This document shows positions 7,761-20,989 of a stretch of DNA of 40,441 nt, in pieces; position 1 is the first letter of the stretch, and every line of letters starts with the position of its first letter. The position numbers were made by a program, and so were the translations under genes. The DNA is from a virus: IMG/VR virus record IMGVR_UViG_3300021961_000223, positions 1 through 40,441 of that record. One strand, written 5' to 3'. The notes under the pieces are model-generated. The model worked only from the letters and a program-made list of their open reading frames with translations, searched no databases and had not been told where the DNA came from.

Positions 7761-8152
7761 TATGAGTAATTAAAGTGATAGTGTGTTTCCCAAATGAATC
7801 CTGGTTGGTCCTTTTTATCAAGCATTTTGCTTACATAATCTGGGATTAGATTGGCATACTGGGTGCGAAATACTTCTTCTGTCGGTTCTTCAATGCCAGA
7901 AAAGAAGAATGATTCACCAACAAACTCCTTGAAACTTTCCAATTCATAATCTTTGCCATTATAGGGTTCATAGTTACGACATGCCTTCAACCAGAAAGAC
8001 ATACCCTCACCAGTGGCAAAGTATTCTACAGCAAAGAAACGATAGAATGGTCGTTTGTTTTCTTCTTCTCGTCGTGCTGCTTCCTCAAACATTTCATCGG
8101 GATATGGTAACATATCAAAGGCATCAGAAATGTGTCCGTATTCTTCAGTCAT
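7760..8152 (-). CDS. 130-aa acidic protein of unknown function
   Basis: Acidic and aromatic-rich protein starting MTEEYGHISDAFDM. Its ATG overlaps the TGA of the methyltransferase gene, so it may be co-translated with the restriction-modification pair. Highly acidic, small phage proteins at this position can be DNA mimics, but the charge alone is insufficient to claim that. Confidence 0.7.
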   Translation of the reverse strand: MTEEYGHISDAFDMLPYPDEMFEEAARREEENKRPFYRFFAVEYFATGEGMSFWLKACRNYEPYNGKDYELESFKEFVGESFFFSGIEEPTEEVFRTQYANLIPDYVSKMLDKKDQPGFIWETHYHFNYS

Positions 8153-8994
8153 TCTACTTCAACGAGTGATGTTAACAGGTGTGGTGTTGATTGTTTAGCA
8201 CGAGTCACACACATTTCATGGTAGGTAGGATCAATCTCAAACCCGATAAAGTTTCTACCTTCCTCGATACACATTTGTGCAGTTGTACCTGCACCCATGA
8301 AAGGATCGATGATTAGATCACCTTTGTTGCTCCAGGTTTGAATATGCCCTCGTGCTAATTCCTCAGGCATTGTAGCAGGGTGCTTGTAACTTGCCTTGGA
8401 TGACTGTCCAAACCCACCGCTATTCTTGATCTTCCAAATATTATTTCTCACACCATATTCTCGGATGGCATTACTCTTCTTGCCAGGATCATTGAAGGTG
8501 CCATCCTTCTTCCTGGTGACAGCATTGCCAAATGAGGTATAACCTGCCCACTTATTCTTCTTGTCTTGAATGAGATTGACTGTCTTAGGTTTGCCCTTGG
8601 ATAGTATGAAGCAATACTCAAAGATCTGAGTATAACGTACACTCTTTGGACCAGATGCAAACGCTGTGCCAGTCTTTTCATAGATCATTGTATCATGTAG
8701 ACGCATACCATGAGCGTCCATAAAATGAAGGCACTGCCGAAAACTACTACCAGTTTCGCTCCCATTAATTGTTGCATCGTTGACATTCCACATAATAATA
8801 CCGCCAGGTTTTAACACCCGTGCTAATCCAGCAGCAACATCTTTGAAGACATTGAAGTCCCATTTACTGCTGTCATTATACGTACGAAGATCATCGTATG
8901 GTGGCGATGTGATGCAGAGATCTACACTCTCTGCATCCATGAGTTGCATCCCTTCGACACAACTCATCAGGTGAGTTTGGTTAATTTCAAGCAT
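8149..8994 (-). CDS. DNA methyltransferase, beta-class N4-cytosine/N6-adenine type
   Basis: A 281-aa enzyme expected to transfer a methyl group from S-adenosylmethionine to an exocyclic amino group of DNA. The catalytic motif TSPPY is at residues 29-33 and the SAM-binding motif DPFMGAGTT at 230-238, so catalytic motif IV precedes motif I, the permuted order of the beta class. KPGG (62-65) and HPATMPEELARG (about 205-215) are also typical. The SPPY form is usual in N4-cytosine and some N6-adenine enzymes, so the methylated base is open. The start ATG overlaps the stop of the putative endonuclease gene by 8 bases, suggesting a coupled restriction-modification operon. Confidence 0.92.
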   Translation of the reverse strand: MLEINQTHLMSCVEGMQLMDAESVDLCITSPPYDDLRTYNDSSKWDFNVFKDVAAGLARVLKPGGIIMWNVNDATINGSETGSSFRQCLHFMDAHGMRLHDTMIYEKTGTAFASGPKSVRYTQIFEYCFILSKGKPKTVNLIQDKKNKWAGYTSFGNAVTRKKDGTFNDPGKKSNAIREYGVRNNIWKIKNSGGFGQSSKASYKHPATMPEELARGHIQTWSNKGDLIIDPFMGAGTTAQMCIEEGRNFIGFEIDPTYHEMCVTRAKQSTPHLLTSLVEVE

Positions 8995-10669: not shown

Positions 10670-10699
10670 TATAGTAGCACAAAAAAAGAGGGGTGTCAA
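10670..10699 (-). promoter_or_regulatory. Sigma70 promoter TTGACA-18-TACTAT in a terminator
   Basis: -35 TTGACA (10699-10694) and -10 TACTAT (10675-10670) with an 18-base spacer that contains the 3' arm and T tract of the terminator. It drives the gene starting at 10609. Confidence 0.75.
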
Positions 10700-10705
10700 C
10701 CCCTC
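10680..10705 (-). terminator. Rho-independent terminator overlapping a stop codon
   Basis: GAGGGG, loop TTGACA, CCCCTC, then eight T on the transcribed strand. The TGA stop of the oxygenase gene (10698-10696) lies in the loop. The loop is also the -35 box of the next promoter. Confidence 0.85.
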
Positions 10706-11307
10706 CAACCATATGGAACCAAATAAAAGTTTGCGCTGAATGTTATCCGTGTCTGTGTGCCTCTGTGAGGCGATACGAGGTGAGGATAGTGTGATGGGAA
10801 GAAGATGATGCTTCCTTGCTTTACAGGGGGCGTATGGTATTGCTCACAAGGTAATACCATTAGGTCTGCCAATCCCTGCATCATGTAGTTACTATGCTCA
10901 GGATCCTTAAACTTAAATTGACAGTTGTCGTCATCATTCAGGCGATGAAAGTATACCATACTAAGATTAGTATTGGGAGTGCAATGATCATGCAACTCTT
11001 GCGAATCCCCTGGGTTGTACTTATTGACCCATGCTTCTTGTGGTAATACTTCTACTGCTTTCGCACGTACAATTGATAGCATGTCATCAACGTATGGGCG
11101 AATGATATCAAGAAACTCTTTCCATTCTGGAGTATCATTCTCCCCTACCTGATAGGATGTTTGCACATTACAATTCCATCCAGGTGGTTGTTTGAAGTTG
11201 TTATCATCCTCGATGTAATCTCGGAAGGTTTGATCAATCGTAGAAATTTCAGTTGTTGTTAAGACCTCGTGGTAATACCAACGAGGATGATAAACTTCAA
11301 TAGACAT
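10696..11307 (-). CDS. 2-oxoglutarate/Fe(II)-dependent oxygenase (2OG-FeII_Oxy_5-like)
   Basis: A 203-aa enzyme from the ATG at 11307, with a GTG codon just before it. Residue numbers here count from the GTG. It carries the cupin-type iron site: H107 and H109 in ELHDHC, a distal H177 in SHYPHLVSP and R188 that would bind 2-oxoglutarate. The run WVNKYNPGD...LHDH...NLSMVYF and the FFPSHYPH segment match the family of putative 2OG-Fe(II) oxygenases known from cyanophages. Substrate unknown: protein, nucleic acid or small-molecule hydroxylation are all possible. The start overlaps the TAG of the upstream gene (TAGTGATG). Confidence 0.85.
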   Translation of the reverse strand: MSIEVYHPRWYYHEVLTTTEISTIDQTFRDYIEDDNNFKQPPGWNCNVQTSYQVGENDTPEWKEFLDIIRPYVDDMLSIVRAKAVEVLPQEAWVNKYNPGDSQELHDHCTPNTNLSMVYFHRLNDDDNCQFKFKDPEHSNYMMQGLADLMVLPCEQYHTPPVKQGSIIFFPSHYPHLVSPHRGTQTRITFSANFYLVPYGWRG

Positions 11308-11309
11308 CA

Positions 11310-11504
11310 CTATGCATAAACATTTTTAAGGTGCAAGACTTCAATAATCTCACTGATTTTCTGCATCTGTGCTTCGTAATCAGATGCGCTAATTGTCTTG
11401 TCTCGATAGTACTTACCCTGTATGTCTTGCACATACATGAAGATACATTCTCTGACGATTTGCTTTTGGTCTGTGTCCAGTAGTGCTGAATGAGGCATGG
11501 TCAT
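11310..11504 (-). CDS. Small protein of unknown function
   Basis: A 64-aa mostly helical protein (MTMPHSALLDTDQKQIV); MPHS two codons in is an alternative start. It overlaps its neighbours by a few bases. No domain recognised. Confidence 0.7.
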   Translation of the reverse strand: MTMPHSALLDTDQKQIVRECIFMYVQDIQGKYYRDKTISASDYEAQMQKISEIIEVLHLKNVYA

Positions 11505-13557: not shown

Positions 13558-15282
13558 TTATTTATCTTTCTCAATCACCACAATGTATAGTCCATTCCAC
13601 CAATCATTGCTGTCTTCCAACTCTTCGGTGAGTAATGCACGAGTATAAAGTACAGTTTTATCTTCTATGAATGCTTTGGTGGCATCAACAACTCCATCAA
13701 AGTTTGCATCATCAACCACCAAGATGTAGGAGTCTGCAGCATTCTCATGTAGGATTTTAAGATTGGCAATCATGTTATCCTTGGTGTTATCTGCATCATA
13801 AAAGATAACATTGGGACGATATTCTGGATTGAATGCTACTTCATGAATGGGTTTATCTGTGATGGCAATAGATGCATCAGGATTAAACCATTGCTTTGCA
13901 TACTCTATCAAATTACCCTGAGGATTGTCTACTTTGAATGCATTTGTAGGTACATTCTTCTTTGGTTGCACAACACCATCAGACCAATCATCAATAGCAT
14001 ATGCTTTAATTGAATTGCCCATTGTAGCAGCAAAGAGTGTGCTACCCATGTAACATCCCACGTCTGCATATACAGTATCAGGATCTTTGCATAGGTTATT
14101 AAGGAAATGTCTGACCTTTGTTGATGATAACCCAACAACATCATATCCCTGAGGATTAAAGTTTGAGTTGTCATCTACAGCAGCATCGATAGCACTAATC
14201 ACCCTATTTACAAGAGGATTCAACTGTCTCTTTTGTTTCTTAAGATGAGACTCAATAACTGACTCGCAGTAATTACAATCCCAGCAGTTAAACTTACAGG
14301 TCTTAATCTTGTCACGCCAGATATTGATAGGTGCATCCTTTAGATCAACATCATCCATATACTTTTCAAACTCAGGATATAAAATATCCTCACCATCATT
14401 CCATCTCTGAATGATATCCATCGACTCTTTTAGACGCATTGCAGACTCTCTACCATGCATCTTGAAGACATCAATAACATCTAGCAACTCTTCCCAATCT
14501 GCTCTCCAGGGAGGAAGATTTGCCTTCTTCAATTCATAGGAAGCATCATATGCATCCCAGCGTGAACATGAAACTCTGCTGATCTCTGAATTAAAGTATT
14601 CAGGTTCAGTGCCTTGCCTTGTAGAATTGTACTGATAATGCTCAGGCATGATAGGACAACCACCCCAACAATGCTCATTAGCAAGTAACGATAGTTTGAT
14701 TGGGTTGCCTTTCTTTTCACAGTATTCTTTTGCCTTGAGTATCATTGACAGTGCATCTTGATCGCGCATGATATCACGATCGAGATTGATATAGTTGAAT
14801 CCTGCACTAGCAAGAGATACAATCTCGTTGGGTTTAGTTACCTCACGCAAGATAGTATTCTTGATATAAATGCCAGGAAAGTGACGTTGGATCTGTCCTG
14901 TTGATACCCACGATGTATGTGGCAGAGTGACAATCTTAACACCAACATCCCACAAATATTTGAAGTTATCGATCCACATATCCAGATTACGTTGATCTGG
15001 TCTCACCCACATATTGTTGAATGTGGCAGATAGTGGAATACCTGTCTTCTCTGAAATATACAACGCATTGCGAATAGCACCCTTGCTATCCTTTTCCATA
15101 CGAAATACATCCCCCATTGCATCTTGAGTGAATGGGGGCATTCTTGAAGTAAAGTACAGATCAACAATCAGATCCTTGTGTTTAATAAGAAAGGGAATGA
15201 AGTCGCTTTCAATAAACTCTGGATCAAGTTTTGGGTTTATCGGCAGACTGAAGGAAGCGGTCTGTGATGTTGTTGCTAGCAT
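13558..15282 (-). CDS. U32-like Cys-cluster barrel fused to SAM methyltransferase
   Basis: A 574-aa fusion. Residues 25-240 look like a U32-family barrel: LIVDLYFTSR, GIPLSATFNN, GVKIVTLPH, GFNYINLDRDI, then SLLANEHCWGGCP with C205 and C209, and C239 further on. A second cluster C329-x3-C333-x2-C336-x2-C339 could hold iron-sulphur. Residues 385-574 are a class I SAM methyltransferase: DVGCYMGS (407-414), DDWSD (431), YDADNT (495) and VVDDANFDG (522), as in the Methyltransf_24 type. Known U32 relatives hydroxylate RNA or ubiquinone precursors, so hydroxylation followed by methylation is a possible two-step chemistry; the substrate is unknown. It sits inside the fibre cluster, with no late promoter of its own visible. 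Confidence 0.7.
   Translation of the reverse strand: MLATTSQTASFSLPINPKLDPEFIESDFIPFLIKHKDLIVDLYFTSRMPPFTQDAMGDVFRMEKDSKGAIRNALYISEKTGIPLSATFNNMWVRPDQRNLDMWIDNFKYLWDVGVKIVTLPHTSWVSTGQIQRHFPGIYIKNTILREVTKPNEIVSLASAGFNYINLDRDIMRDQDALSMILKAKEYCEKKGNPIKLSLLANEHCWGGCPIMPEHYQYNSTRQGTEPEYFNSEISRVSCSRWDAYDASYELKKANLPPWRADWEELLDVIDVFKMHGRESAMRLKESMDIIQRWNDGEDILYPEFEKYMDDVDLKDAPINIWRDKIKTCKFNCWDCNYCESVIESHLKKQKRQLNPLVNRVISAIDAAVDDNSNFNPQGYDVVGLSSTKVRHFLNNLCKDPDTVYADVGCYMGSTLFAATMGNSIKAYAIDDWSDGVVQPKKNVPTNAFKVDNPQGNLIEYAKQWFNPDASIAITDKPIHEVAFNPEYRPNVIFYDADNTKDNMIANLKILHENAADSYILVVDDANFDGVVDATKAFIEDKTVLYTRALLTEELEDSNDWWNGLYIVVIEKDK
13559..13566 (-). promoter_or_regulatory. Late promoter motif GATAAATA
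   Basis: Minus-strand GATAAATA, 27-34 bases before the Gly-rich fibre start at 13532. It is a variant of the T4 late -10 element TATAAATA read by phage gp55-type sigma. Confidence 0.55.
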
Positions 15283-16090
15283 AATCTGTTAATACTCCAG
15301 TGGTGTCAAACATTTGAATGGGTTTGCCATCCAGTAGTTTATCTACGCGTTCTTCTGCTGCTTCTTTAATAGCACCGATGCTACGATTGACAGCAGTAGA
15401 ATATGTCAATGCAAGATCTGTTACTGCTGCTTGATCCTCGGGGGACATTTGCAGCATACTTTCTAGGTTACCTGCTTGGATTCTACCAGTAGTTAGAAGA
15501 TCCACAGATGCTTGTTTTGCCATTCTAGCAATCCAATACTTGTGCTCTTCTTGCTCTTTAAGATCTTTATCTTCAATCATATTCATGCAGGTAGTAGGAT
15601 CTTCACCCGTCCTTTCCTTAACAATTTTAACGAAACCTGCGATCTCGTCTTTTGATTGATTGAGTTTGTTGATCCATAGTTGCTTATCACAGAGAAGCAA
15701 CTCCAACTCATATTCTTTATCCTTCTTATAGAATGGATTCTCTTCATTTTCAATCTCCCATTTGACACGCTCAATGTCATTGAGACATCTCTTGTAAGAG
15801 ATTGCAATCTTTTGCATTCCGTTGTATCTCACTTGTATCTCCATCACTGCTTGTTGCAGTTGACGATATGGAGTTACATGAGAATTGACAACGTAGTATC
15901 TATTTTGAAACTCAGATTGCTCAAAGTATTGTCTATCAGACCACTGCATTAGTGCAGTAGTATAATCATCCGTTTCCCAAGGTGCGATGCCTTCTAGATC
16001 TTCTAGAAGACTATCGACATTATATTCAGAAGCGAATTCCTGAGATGACTGCTTCTTTTCTAACGATTCGTCCTGTTCCTTCTTCTTCAT
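15224..16090 (-). CDS. 288-aa coiled-coil virion-region protein
   Basis: An almost entirely charged and helical protein. After a Lys/Gln-rich N-terminus it has the segment DSLLEDLEGIAPWETDDYTTALMQWSDRQYFEQSEFQNRYYVVNS, then coiled-coil-like stretches at about 85-150. It overlaps the upstream gene by 65 bases and the downstream fusion gene by 59 bases; such long overlaps favour co-translation of these three genes. Position suggests a fibre or tail assembly role; no family recognised. Confidence 0.7.
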   Translation of the reverse strand: MKKKEQDESLEKKQSSQEFASEYNVDSLLEDLEGIAPWETDDYTTALMQWSDRQYFEQSEFQNRYYVVNSHVTPYRQLQQAVMEIQVRYNGMQKIAISYKRCLNDIERVKWEIENEENPFYKKDKEYELELLLCDKQLWINKLNQSKDEIAGFVKIVKERTGEDPTTCMNMIEDKDLKEQEEHKYWIARMAKQASVDLLTTGRIQAGNLESMLQMSPEDQAAVTDLALTYSTAVNRSIGAIKEAAEERVDKLLDGKPIQMFDTTGVLTDYASNNITDRFLQSADKPKT

Positions 16091-16778
16091 AACAGCGGTT
16101 ATACTCTAAACATTGTTTACGGGTCATTTCAATACCAAAGTAATCCTCAAGGAATACATTGGCATCACGATTGTTACTACATGCTTTAACTTTGGCAATC
16201 AATTCTTGCTCTTTTGCAGCAAGATCATAGTATTCAATTTTCCACTCATTGTTTTTCGCTACGATCTTAGCAGCAAACTCTCCAAGTGTCAATCCACGTA
16301 CTTCAGCAAGACGGTCAATCAGTTTGACCTCAGTTGCATTATCAGCAAGATATGCTTTTGCTTCTGCTAACTGATCTGCCCAAGTATCCATCTCAAGGTG
16401 AGAGTATTTAGCACGAAGAATAGTCTCTCTTTTTTCAAAGACTTCTTGAATAGCAAGTGTAGTTACTTGCTTCATAACTCTCAAAGAAACATCAAACTTT
16501 GTCTCATCGATTTTCTCTTTGAGTTTATCGGTAGTGCCCTCTTCTGTGGTGCCATATGTAGATCTTTCACCACGGATTTCACCCCAGTAGCGATAACCTA
16601 GATCTGCATCATGAGCATCTAGTCTCAAATAATGGACTTCTCTGGGAATATAACCCCAATACATCTCATCAAGATAGTAAAATTGAAGACCCAATCTAGA
16701 TCCAACATAGGTACCCCATTCCCCCACTTTAGGGAAACGCTCTAGATCTAAAACAATAACGTCGTTAGTATTTGCCAT
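16026..16778 (-). CDS. Tail/fibre assembly-type protein with helical C-terminus
   Basis: A 250-aa protein: an N-terminal domain with WGTYVGSRLGLQFYYLDEMYWGYIPREVHYLRLDAHDADLGYRYWGE, then a helical C-terminal half (about 95-200) with the DUF4376-like pattern DRLAEVRGLTLGEFAAKIVAKNNEW. That pattern is found in phage tail-fibre assembly chaperones. Its ATG overlaps the stop of the preceding fibre gene, supporting a chaperone for that fibre. Confidence 0.65.
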   Translation of the reverse strand: MANTNDVIVLDLERFPKVGEWGTYVGSRLGLQFYYLDEMYWGYIPREVHYLRLDAHDADLGYRYWGEIRGERSTYGTTEEGTTDKLKEKIDETKFDVSLRVMKQVTTLAIQEVFEKRETILRAKYSHLEMDTWADQLAEAKAYLADNATEVKLIDRLAEVRGLTLGEFAAKIVAKNNEWKIEYYDLAAKEQELIAKVKACSNNRDANVFLEDYFGIEMTRKQCLEYNRCYEEEGTGRIVRKEAVISGIRF

Positions 16779-18163
16779 CAGAAGTTAGGAATATTTGTAC
16801 CGTAGTCGTAAGATGCTTGCCCAGATGTAACAGCAGAAGCAGAAGCACAGTGAGCAGAAGACATACCACCGTGACCCTTAGGTTCTGTTGTAGCACCTAA
16901 GTATGTAGCACCATCATTAATGTAGTTTACTTTGAAAGTTTGGTTATTCTGAGATCCATTATAGTTACCAAGACAGTAACCTTTTCTCATACCCATCTGG
17001 AAGTTTTCCTCTCCCATTCTACCAAAGTCGATGCCTCTCACGTTAATACCAGTAATGTCATCGATTCTAGCATTACCATTCTGGTTGTTATTACCAGTGC
17101 CACAATATAAGTGACCTAGCATGGTTGGCAGACATTTCTTCCAACCATCACCACCAGGACCATGCTCCCATGTAACCCAAGATTCAGTTTTCCACTCTAA
17201 ACCTTTTCTTGTACCACCACGTTTGTGCCATCCTTTAAGTCTACCATGACCACCCCATGTGGGGTCATCACCACCATCAGGATAATCATTAGGGAAACCA
17301 GATGTTCTCATGGTTTCTGTCTTCAAGTTGAAAACATCCGTGCGACCATTACCACCACCAGTTAGGTATGAATTGCCGCCAGCAAAAACGTGATCTTGCA
17401 TAGATCCCATCGATGCACGAGATACTGTCATATCCCATTGTGATAGGTGAGCAATACCACTTTCAGATGCCATATTGAAACCAGAGGTATAGTTAGAAGA
17501 TCCTCTGTAGGTATTTTCCATCGAGTGGAACCAGTGCTTAATGTCACTCCAGGATCCAGACATGTATGCACCAGATCTATCTAACTTGTCACCAAGGTTA
17601 GTAGATGTATCGGTAGAGTGTACTGTGCGATTTACATTACTCCAAGGAGAAGAGTTTTGATAACCACCACCAACATATCCGTGAGTCCAGATTCTAGCAG
17701 TTGCCCAACCAGTATCATTCTCACCATCAAATGACCAATATGCTTCAGTGCCGTTAGATCTTAGGATAGCACCTACAGAATACTGCTCACTATATCTATC
17801 TGTAGATTGATCGGGTGTGCCAGCACCAGCGCCAGCAATAGGACCCCATTGAGCAACACCTTCACCCTCATTATATGCATAACCTTCAAAGGTCCTATCT
17901 TCAGTATTATATCTAAAGAGACCTTCTACAGGTGATCCAGGTCTTTCTGCAGTTGTGCCTTTTGGTAAAATAATACCATCTGTACCAGTTAGATGTAACG
18001 TAACACTTGGAGATGCTTGATTGACACCAACTCGGTTGTTTGTCGAATCAACATACAAAGTGCCACTATCAAAGTTGAAGTTACCGCTCGCTTCAAGTTG
18101 AAACTCAGCGGTACCACCTCCACCTGCAAGTGATACAATTTTATCTACATTTAACTGAGACAT
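16778..18163 (-). CDS. Tail fibre protein with Gly/Asn-rich tip
   Basis: 461 aa starting MSQLNVDKIVSLAGGGG. Residues 40-105 carry the shared fibre module LPKGTTAERPGSPVEGLFRYNTEDRTFEGY. The rest is a long beta-rich domain full of Gly, Asn, Trp and His (GGHGRLKGWHKRGG, TGNNNQNGNAR), probably a receptor-binding tip. A CATAAATA late motif is 29-36 bases upstream. Its stop overlaps the start of the putative assembly protein. Confidence 0.8.
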   Translation of the reverse strand: MSQLNVDKIVSLAGGGGTAEFQLEASGNFNFDSGTLYVDSTNNRVGVNQASPSVTLHLTGTDGIILPKGTTAERPGSPVEGLFRYNTEDRTFEGYAYNEGEGVAQWGPIAGAGAGTPDQSTDRYSEQYSVGAILRSNGTEAYWSFDGENDTGWATARIWTHGYVGGGYQNSSPWSNVNRTVHSTDTSTNLGDKLDRSGAYMSGSWSDIKHWFHSMENTYRGSSNYTSGFNMASESGIAHLSQWDMTVSRASMGSMQDHVFAGGNSYLTGGGNGRTDVFNLKTETMRTSGFPNDYPDGGDDPTWGGHGRLKGWHKRGGTRKGLEWKTESWVTWEHGPGGDGWKKCLPTMLGHLYCGTGNNNQNGNARIDDITGINVRGIDFGRMGEENFQMGMRKGYCLGNYNGSQNNQTFKVNYINDGATYLGATTEPKGHGGMSSAHCASASAVTSGQASYDYGTNIPNF

Positions 18164-20359: not shown

Positions 20360-20367
20360 TATTTATT
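20360..20367 (-). promoter_or_regulatory. Late promoter motif AATAAATA
   Basis: Minus-strand AATAAATA ahead of the fibre at 20341, overlapping the TAA stop of the oxygenase gene. Confidence 0.55.
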
Positions 20368-20989
20368 GCCCAGGTGTAGGATACTCCTCTACCCAAGCAG
20401 TAACAATGTACTTATCATTATTTAGTGGAGGATTACCCCTATGTGTCCATGCCCAATCACAAGGGAAGATAACAAACTTTCCTGCTTTAGGTTTGACTCG
20501 AAAATGTTGATACAAAAACTCAGTTTCACCACCCTCAAAGTTATCATTGAGGTAAATCATTGTCACCAACTTACGATATGGTGATGATGGTGTGGATTCA
20601 TAATGCCATGCATGATAACCCTCACCAGGAGAAGTTTTCTGTAGTTTGCACAGTGTATGTTGGAATCTTCTACCCATGAGAATATCATACTTATTGGCAT
20701 ACTCACGCAATGCCTGATCAGTTAGATAATTCCAACGTTGATATACTCTACGAGATAGATTGTCATGAAAGTATTCATAAGGCAACTCATGCACATACGC
20801 TTGAGTATCTTTTGCACCCCGCTCAGTATTACGTTTGACTGTCAAACCATTATCGTTAATATAGTGAAAGTAATCAATTATCTCCTGACAATTTAGATTA
20901 GTTTCTATTTCCGTAATAAAATTTGGATTATGAGTTACGTTTGTAATGTATGGTTCGCCGCCATTAACGGTAGCAAATGGACTCATCAT
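20363..20989 (-). CDS. 2-oxoglutarate/Fe(II)-dependent oxygenase (prolyl 4-hydroxylase type)
   Basis: A 208-aa enzyme. The iron ligands are H129-x-E131 in HAWHYES and the distal H183 in THRGN; K193 would hold 2-oxoglutarate. The core LVTMIYLNDNFEGGETEF...VKPKAGKFVIFPCDWAWTHRG is the classic 2OG-FeII_Oxy_3 strand pattern, here with Glu instead of the more common Asp. It is embedded in the fibre genes, so it may hydroxylate a virion or host protein, but this is inferred only from location. It is not closely similar to the oxygenase at 10696-11307. Confidence 0.85.
   Translation of the reverse strand: MMSPFATVNGGEPYITNVTHNPNFITEIETNLNCQEIIDYFHYINDNGLTVKRNTERGAKDTQAYVHELPYEYFHDNLSRRVYQRWNYLTDQALREYANKYDILMGRRFQHTLCKLQKTSPGEGYHAWHYESTPSSPYRKLVTMIYLNDNFEGGETEFLYQHFRVKPKAGKFVIFPCDWAWTHRGNPPLNNDKYIVTAWVEEYPTPGQ

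Follow-up and report, generated by a model that had tools for sequence, protein, structure and literature searches.

The window, meaning here the whole 40,441-nucleotide stretch of viral DNA analysed, carries among its tail-fibre genes a gene for a protein in which a barrel of the U32 family is, with little room for doubt, joined to an O-methyltransferase. The protein may be a two-step U32 hydroxylase/O-methyltransferase acting on a component encoded in its own gene cassette, and this reading as a whole is given a probability of about 0.5. Three events are envisaged: (i) the U32 barrel would hydroxylate a carbon of the substrate by means of an Fe–S cluster held by C205, C209 and C239 and possibly H215, (ii) a second cluster at C329–C339 would probably relay electrons, (iii) the fused metal-dependent O-methyltransferase, of the COMT/TrmR type, would then transfer a methyl group from SAM to the hydroxyl so formed. 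The substrate would most likely be a component of the same cassette (the product of gene 351, 352 or 353, a tail-fibre or adhesin-side protein), made together with the virion parts. By analogy with known enzymes, hydroxylation followed by methylation is the probable chemistry, and that the substrate is a cassette-encoded protein is an even call.

The coordinates first proposed for the gene, 13558–15282, are correct, and the reading frame, ATG-initiated and 574 codons long, runs on the minus strand; read on the plus strand, the same interval is interrupted by stops throughout. The frame is not a chance one, since it matches the protein family phrog_1458 (1.3e-274; function unannotated) and recurs in 123 of 50,697 phage records and in hundreds of metagenomic viral contigs. 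Its ATG lies inside the 3′ end of gene 353, with an overlap of 59 bases (window 15224–15282). The starts given in the GenBank records of P-SSM4 and S-RIM14 and in the phrog_1458 model fall ∼50 residues later, which is too late because conserved residues are found from F11 onward; the late starts remove the conserved stretches FSLPINPK and DLYFTxR. The sequence features on which the original prediction was built are all present, namely SLLANEHCWGGCP (residues 198–210), the C329/C333/C336/C339 cluster and DVGCYMGS (407–414), and its placement of the gene in the fibre region is also right: the neighbours are a baseplate hub/lysozyme gene, a virion structural protein gene and several tail-fibre genes. 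Positions of the individual features are collected in Table 1.

Table 1. Window positions of the fusion gene, its domains and motifs, and the other cassette genes.
Feature	Position	Strand	Remarks
Fusion gene, complete	13558..15282	(-)	574 codons + stop; U32-type barrel, 4-Cys motif and O-methyltransferase; equivalent to T4-GC 354 / phrog_1458
U32-fold TIM-like barrel, residues ~11-296	14395..15252	(-)	AF2 model; best PDB match 5D88; profile match with T-even U32 family (hhalign)
E203-x-C205-x3-C209-x5-H215, part of putative Fe-S cluster 1	14638..14676	(-)	all invariant, 68 aligned homologues
C239, invariant, third Cys proposed for cluster 1	14566..14568	(-)	68/68
K274-x-H-G-R278, counterpart of U32 'KIEGR'	14449..14463	(-)	K, H, G, R invariant
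Second Cys motif, C329-x3-C333-x2-C336-x2-C339	14266..14298	(-)	68/68
Class I SAM O-methyltransferase domain, residues 366-574	13561..14187	(-)	VIA-align Z 15-16; Pfam Methyltransf_24 in homologues
Methyltransferase motif I, D407-x-G409-x3-G413-S-T	14038..14064	(-)	G409, G413 49/49
D496, first residue of putative metal triad	13795..13797	(-)	49/49
D524-D525-A-N527, remainder of putative metal triad	13702..13713	(-)	D524, D525, N527 49/49
Gene 353 (phrog_1409), constant partner, overlaps fusion gene start	15224..16090	(-)	123 records; upstream of 121/125 homologues
Gene 352 (phrog_1604), cassette member	16026..16778	(-)	cassette recurrence
Gene 351 (phrog_1417, 'sericin 1 precursor-like' fibre-type protein), cassette member	16778..18163	(-)	cassette recurrence

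For the N-terminal half, an AF2 model of residues 1–352, built on an alignment of 68 homologues, reaches a pLDDT of 87.7 and a pTM of 0.88. This domain was modelled separately because pyruvate kinase chains (∼26 Å rmsd, 8–9% identity) dominated the Foldseek list for the whole protein, matches that were taken to be artificial and to come from superposing both domains together. When the separate model was compared with 350,542 PDB chains in Foldseek, the U32 structure 5D88 came first (E 1.5e-6); it is also first in VIA-align, with a Z of 16.9 and an rmsd of 3.2 Å over 228 residues; the next family, MTHFR, follows at Z 13.2, 3.7 lower. At 10% identity, 5D88 is Mk0906 of Methanopyrus kandleri, a U32 protein of uncharacterised function (PMC11574389). 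What had been recognised by eye as a U32-like barrel is therefore borne out by a separate prediction of the domain whose best match among all PDB chains is a U32 crystal structure, and not, as the original prediction had allowed, some other fold.

The link to the U32 proteins of Escherichia coli runs through the T-even phages and the fold. T-even ‘peptidase U32’ proteins align to residues 38–393 at 21–23% identity (tblastn, E ≤ 10), a profile of the cyanophage N-domain matches their family over residues 36–350 (hhalign, E 2.3e-8), and that family matches E. coli UbiU, TrhP, RlhA and UbiV (hhalign, E 8e-7); the scores of the two links, 48 and 59, stand against column-shuffled maxima of 22 and 20; one set of rows in that control (A8 against shuffled A6) gave odd values and is left out of account. 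The T-even proteins pass the Pfam U32 model (PF01136) with 42 bits at a cut-off of 22.4. The window protein does not reach the gathering score of that model (best E among the 68 homologues 0.15), direct profile comparison of the N-domain with the E. coli U32 proteins gives no significance in hhalign, and a direct sequence search of the PDB with the protein and its profiles returns no match for the N-domain. The KxxGR (‘KIEGR’) motif of the U32 family is nonetheless in place: K274, G277 and R278 are invariant, and the stretch aligns with KVSGR in the T-even proteins, which in turn aligns with KIEGR in those of E. coli. Peptidase or collagenase activity was set aside, ‘U32 peptidase’ being a name with no protease evidence to go with it.

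The two cysteine clusters originally proposed survive in a corrected form. Across 49 representatives sharing <80% mutual identity and reaching down to ∼42% identity to the window protein, seven cysteines (C205, C209, C239, C329, C333, C336 and C339) are present in every one, so that conservation fails for C188 alone, found in 27 of the 49. From the alignment, cluster 1 looks like three cysteines plus perhaps His215: C205 and C209 align to C192 and C203 of the T-even proteins and the invariant H215 to T-even C209, and the T-even C203/C209 pair aligns to the U32 pair C169/C176 (UbiU numbering). UbiU and UbiV each bind a [4Fe-4S] cluster through such cysteines (PMC6747719), a precedent that makes Fe–S clusters in the fusion protein a reasonable but putative assignment. 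The second motif also has a T-even counterpart, C-x4-C-x3-C-x2-C at the aligned place. A radical SAM reading of C329-x3-C333-x2-C336 was rejected: the radical SAM CX3CX2C follows the first barrel strand, whereas the copy at 329–336 comes after the barrel, its spacing is not conserved (CX4CX3CX2C in the T-even proteins), and SAM binding belongs to the other domain.

UbiU/UbiV, RlhA and TrhP share with the fusion protein the U32 barrel, the KxxGR motif and a cysteine cluster after a late barrel strand, but they differ from it in several ways. U32 hydroxylases have four conserved cysteines, typically in the pattern CX6CX15CX3/4C (or the UbiU/UbiV variants), in place of which the phage protein has three invariant cysteines and His215, CX3CX5HX23C. 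The glutamate required in TrhP and RlhA (E162/E161; PMC6599085) is missing from all 68 aligned homologues: S198, which aligns to it and to T-even E185, is Ser in 66 of them and Ala in two. None of these hydroxylases has a fused methyltransferase, the second 4-Cys motif is absent from the published descriptions of them that were consulted, and their substrates are RNA or ubiquinone precursors; a [4Fe-4S] cluster and hydroxylation dependent on prephenate further mark the group. The phage protein is thus a member of the U32 fold family that falls outside the RlhA/TrhP/UbiUV hydroxylase group by the two tested features, yet may well work as they do. The same two substitutions, Ser198 for Glu in 66 of 68 homologues and His215 for Cys, would also suit a barrel that has become a binding or assembly scaffold with its essential glutamate lost, leaving the methyltransferase as the one working half, on a cassette protein. 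This is unlikely given that H122, D168, R169, KxHGRE and E203 are as invariant in the 68 homologues as the cysteines, and that the N-terminal half is the more conserved of the two (mean column identity 77%, against 59% for the methyltransferase half), which speaks for catalysis. The original idea of a fused hydroxylate-then-methylate enzyme fits the parts found; its chemistry we infer, with Ser198 standing where TrhP and RlhA have Glu and His215 where they have Cys.

The methyltransferase half of the original prediction is confirmed, and belongs to an O-methyltransferase type that includes TrmR. In the full-length model, the C-domain has the Rossmann methyltransferase fold and matches O-methyltransferases at Z 15–16 in VIA-align, the best matches being tied between MeT1, a CbiT-like protein, SafC, catechol O-methyltransferase and TrmR (5zw3, Z 15.5). 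Two homologues pass Pfam Methyltransf_24 (L086 with 30.9 bits and L079 with 29.5, cut-off 26.3); the window protein scores below it and has no Pfam match for either domain. G409, G413, D431, D496, D524, D525, N527, E556 and W562-N-G are present in 49/49 representatives. On the model, the C-domain is an O-methyltransferase of the COMT/TrmR/MeT1 type with a putative metal triad D496/D524/D525. MeT1, SafC and the catechol O-methyltransferases (6g80, 5log, 8c9s) have the same fold and metal-triad layout, and differ in being stand-alone enzymes that act on sugars or catechols; MeT1 is a sugar O-methyltransferase.

Every one of the 268 full-length homologues has both domains in a single chain, which answers the suggestion that the same fusion be sought in other cyanophages. 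Incomplete frames are contig ends or split copies (L153, L267), and beyond these no stand-alone copy of either domain was found in cyanophages; nor could a stand-alone gene be traced for phrog_36869 (346 aa), which covers the N-terminal half alone. In P-SSM3 (L153:4954-6674), whose record annotates no CDS for it, the gene breaks near codon 445 into two reading frames that overlap. The viruses that carry the fusion come from oceans and lakes and are relatives of the phages of cyanobacteria. A search of genome contigs for relatives in hosts gave two matches, both in metagenome-assembled bins, one of which (L147) is most likely a misbinned phage and carries the phage cassette. Among the control genomes, the phrog_1458 profile also matched Methanocaldococcus jannaschii, where the match could be to a U32 protein or to a methyltransferase.

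The fusion gene is inherited as part of a four-gene cassette. Of 50,697 phage records, exactly 123 contain gene 351, and the number is the same for 352, for 353 and for the fusion gene, as is the breakdown by genus (Synechococcus 77, Cyanophage 38, Prochlorococcus 8); these records include many near-identical isolates and are not 123 independent events, and their identity across the genes was checked by name in part. The fusion gene and 353 are both present in P-SSM4, P-HM2, Syn33, ACG-2014j and S-RIM14, and both absent from S-PM2, Syn9, P-SSM2 and S-SM1. In the more diverse set of viral contigs, 353 lies ≤4 kb upstream in 121 of 125 distinct copies and abuts or overlaps the fusion gene in 99; of the four copies that depart from this, three belong to S-ShM2/S-RIM14-type phages (L083, L169, L170), and in S-RIM14 the distance to 353 is ∼6 kb. 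On five contigs of different metagenomic origin (L010, L011, L013, L072, L101), some of them cut by a contig or locus end, two diverged cassettes follow one another, and each includes a copy of the enzyme; the copies are 53–61% identical over the compared stretch, and 54% in L010 and L011. Gene 353 has low overall identity and an invariant core of Q80, E84, E149, W186, R189, Q193, G202, G207 and Q220.

It is this one-to-one tie with 351–353, together with the tandem cassette-bound copies, that makes a partner within the cassette a likelier substrate than tRNA or DNA: an enzyme serving either of those would be expected neither to be tied to 351–353 nor to have a second cassette-bound copy. The closest known pairing of a U32 protein with an O-methyltransferase is nevertheless TrhP and TrmR (YrrM) of Bacillus subtilis, which likewise act on one substrate but are separate proteins, and whose substrate is the tRNA wobble uridine. 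The original prediction had cited this precedent, and trhP1/trhP2 and trmR do share one operon (PMC6599085). The fusion protein could accordingly be read as a single-chain equivalent that makes ho5U and then mo5U at the wobble base of host or phage tRNA, or modifies rRNA, and structures of TrmR share the tie for best match to the C-domain. Such a role is improbable: the gene travels only with 351–353, some genomes hold two cassette-bound copies, the glutamate essential in TrhP is missing, and P-SSM4 and P-HM2 carry the enzyme without phage tRNA genes whereas S-PM2, with 25 tRNAs, lacks it (tRNA counts from PMC3037559). Among the substrates first suggested, a virion part, a host glycan or tRNA, the genomic evidence thus favours the cassette-specific, virion-side one over tRNA.

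A further reading, of low probability, is that the enzyme works on a glycan or small molecule, either producing a hydroxylated or O-methylated sugar for decoration of the fibre or changing a sugar on the host surface. The C-domain is closely related, by structure or by Pfam family, to MeT1, macrocin/TylF-like enzymes and Methyltransf_24, and the fibre-gene neighbourhood would suit such a product, but no sugar gene recurs with the cassette (among the window genes, the set tested) and aromatic or pyrimidine carbons are what the U32 precedents modify (PMC6599085, PMC6747719).

The nearest relative outside the cyanophages is phrog_5757, a ‘peptidase U32’ of RB69-like phages (RB69ORF050c; Mosigvirus and related Straboviridae) that is homologous to the N-domain of the window protein and found in 219 phage records; RB69ORF050c is listed as U32 in a paper on T4-like genomes. 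It has the same barrel with a C-terminal second Cys motif, but at 386 aa it has no methyltransferase domain, its first motif reads CX10CX5CX23C against CX3CX5HX23C, it keeps E185 where the fusion protein has Ser198, and unlike the fusion gene it sits in a DNA-hypermodification locus. In two Straboviridae loci (L085:4917-6077 and L084:4917-6077) it lies between sugar genes or a HAD gene and a thymidylate-synthase-like gene, which resembles the 5-hydroxy-dCMP synthase of arabinosyl-hydroxycytosine phages. Hydroxylation of cytosine at C5 followed by O-methylation, as a step in DNA hypermodification, might be proposed from this relative's place beside thymidylate-synthase-like and sugar genes, from the arabinosylated 5-hydroxycytosine in the DNA of RB69-type phages (PMC13390438) and from the 5-hydroxycytidine made by RlhA (PMC6599085). 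It is nonetheless a very remote prospect, as five cassette-bearing cyanophages tested have no homologue of the thymidylate-synthase-like enzyme, and the fusion gene lies in the virion and fibre region, away from DNA metabolism.

Taking the cassette-borne substrate as the preferred reading, an aromatic side chain (for example a near-invariant Tyr or Trp of 353 or 351) would be the natural guess, because the carbons hydroxylated by known U32 enzymes are aromatic or belong to pyrimidines, and the hydroxyls methylated by COMT-type enzymes are of that kind; this is speculation. On a reading held to be somewhat less likely than not, the U32 Fe–S hydroxylase and catechol-type O-methyltransferase could make an O-methylated hydroxy residue on a side chain, aromatic or other, of a tail-fibre-side protein, as a dedicated fibre-maturation enzyme inherited in the fibre cassette. 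Counted against the main reading are the non-significant direct comparison with E. coli U32 proteins, Ser198, the three-cysteine cluster 1, the near-identical isolates, and the absence of any obvious advantage of an O2-independent U32 hydroxylase in an oxygenic host.

U32 hydroxylases, COMT-like enzymes and the cooperation of TrhP with TrmR are already known. The open-access literature yielded no cyanophage fusion of U32 and methyltransferase, nor any single-chain fusion, 3Cys/His cluster 1, second Cys motif with a methyltransferase or tie to a fibre cassette, an absence that weighs little; it likewise yielded no peptide or virion proteomics for 351–353, and the virion proteomics of S-SM1 (PMC3037559) says nothing on the cassette because that phage lacks it. 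Characterised U32 hydroxylases act on RNA or quinone precursors by a mechanism that is unsettled (PMC11574389), so a substrate among the cassette partners would, if true, be a new job for the family, and a fibre-side protein substrate would be its first post-translational role. Hydroxylation and O-methylation in one chain, tied to a few virion-region genes, would make a tractable system for identifying the product. The analysis also offers a likely identity for a widespread marine-phage ‘hypothetical protein’ (phrog_1458, T4-GC 354) and links it to the unexplained U32 gene of the RB69-like DNA-arabinosylation locus.

A fusion enzyme tied in this way to virion-region genes hints that phages finish their fibres chemically by oxidation, in a region shared with 2OG-Fe(II) oxygenases. 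Two such oxygenase genes flank the fibre genes of the window (10696–11310 and 20363–20989, minus strand), and one lies ≤6 kb from 80 of 125 loci. The corresponding, cassette-free region of S-SM1 has genes annotated as 2OG oxygenase, ‘leprecan’ and ferrochelatase. Elsewhere in the window, a gene for an N6/N4-type DNA methylase (8149–8994, minus strand; Pfam 6.7e-40) adjoins a phrog_11812 gene and another that weakly resembles ParB (phrog_2558).
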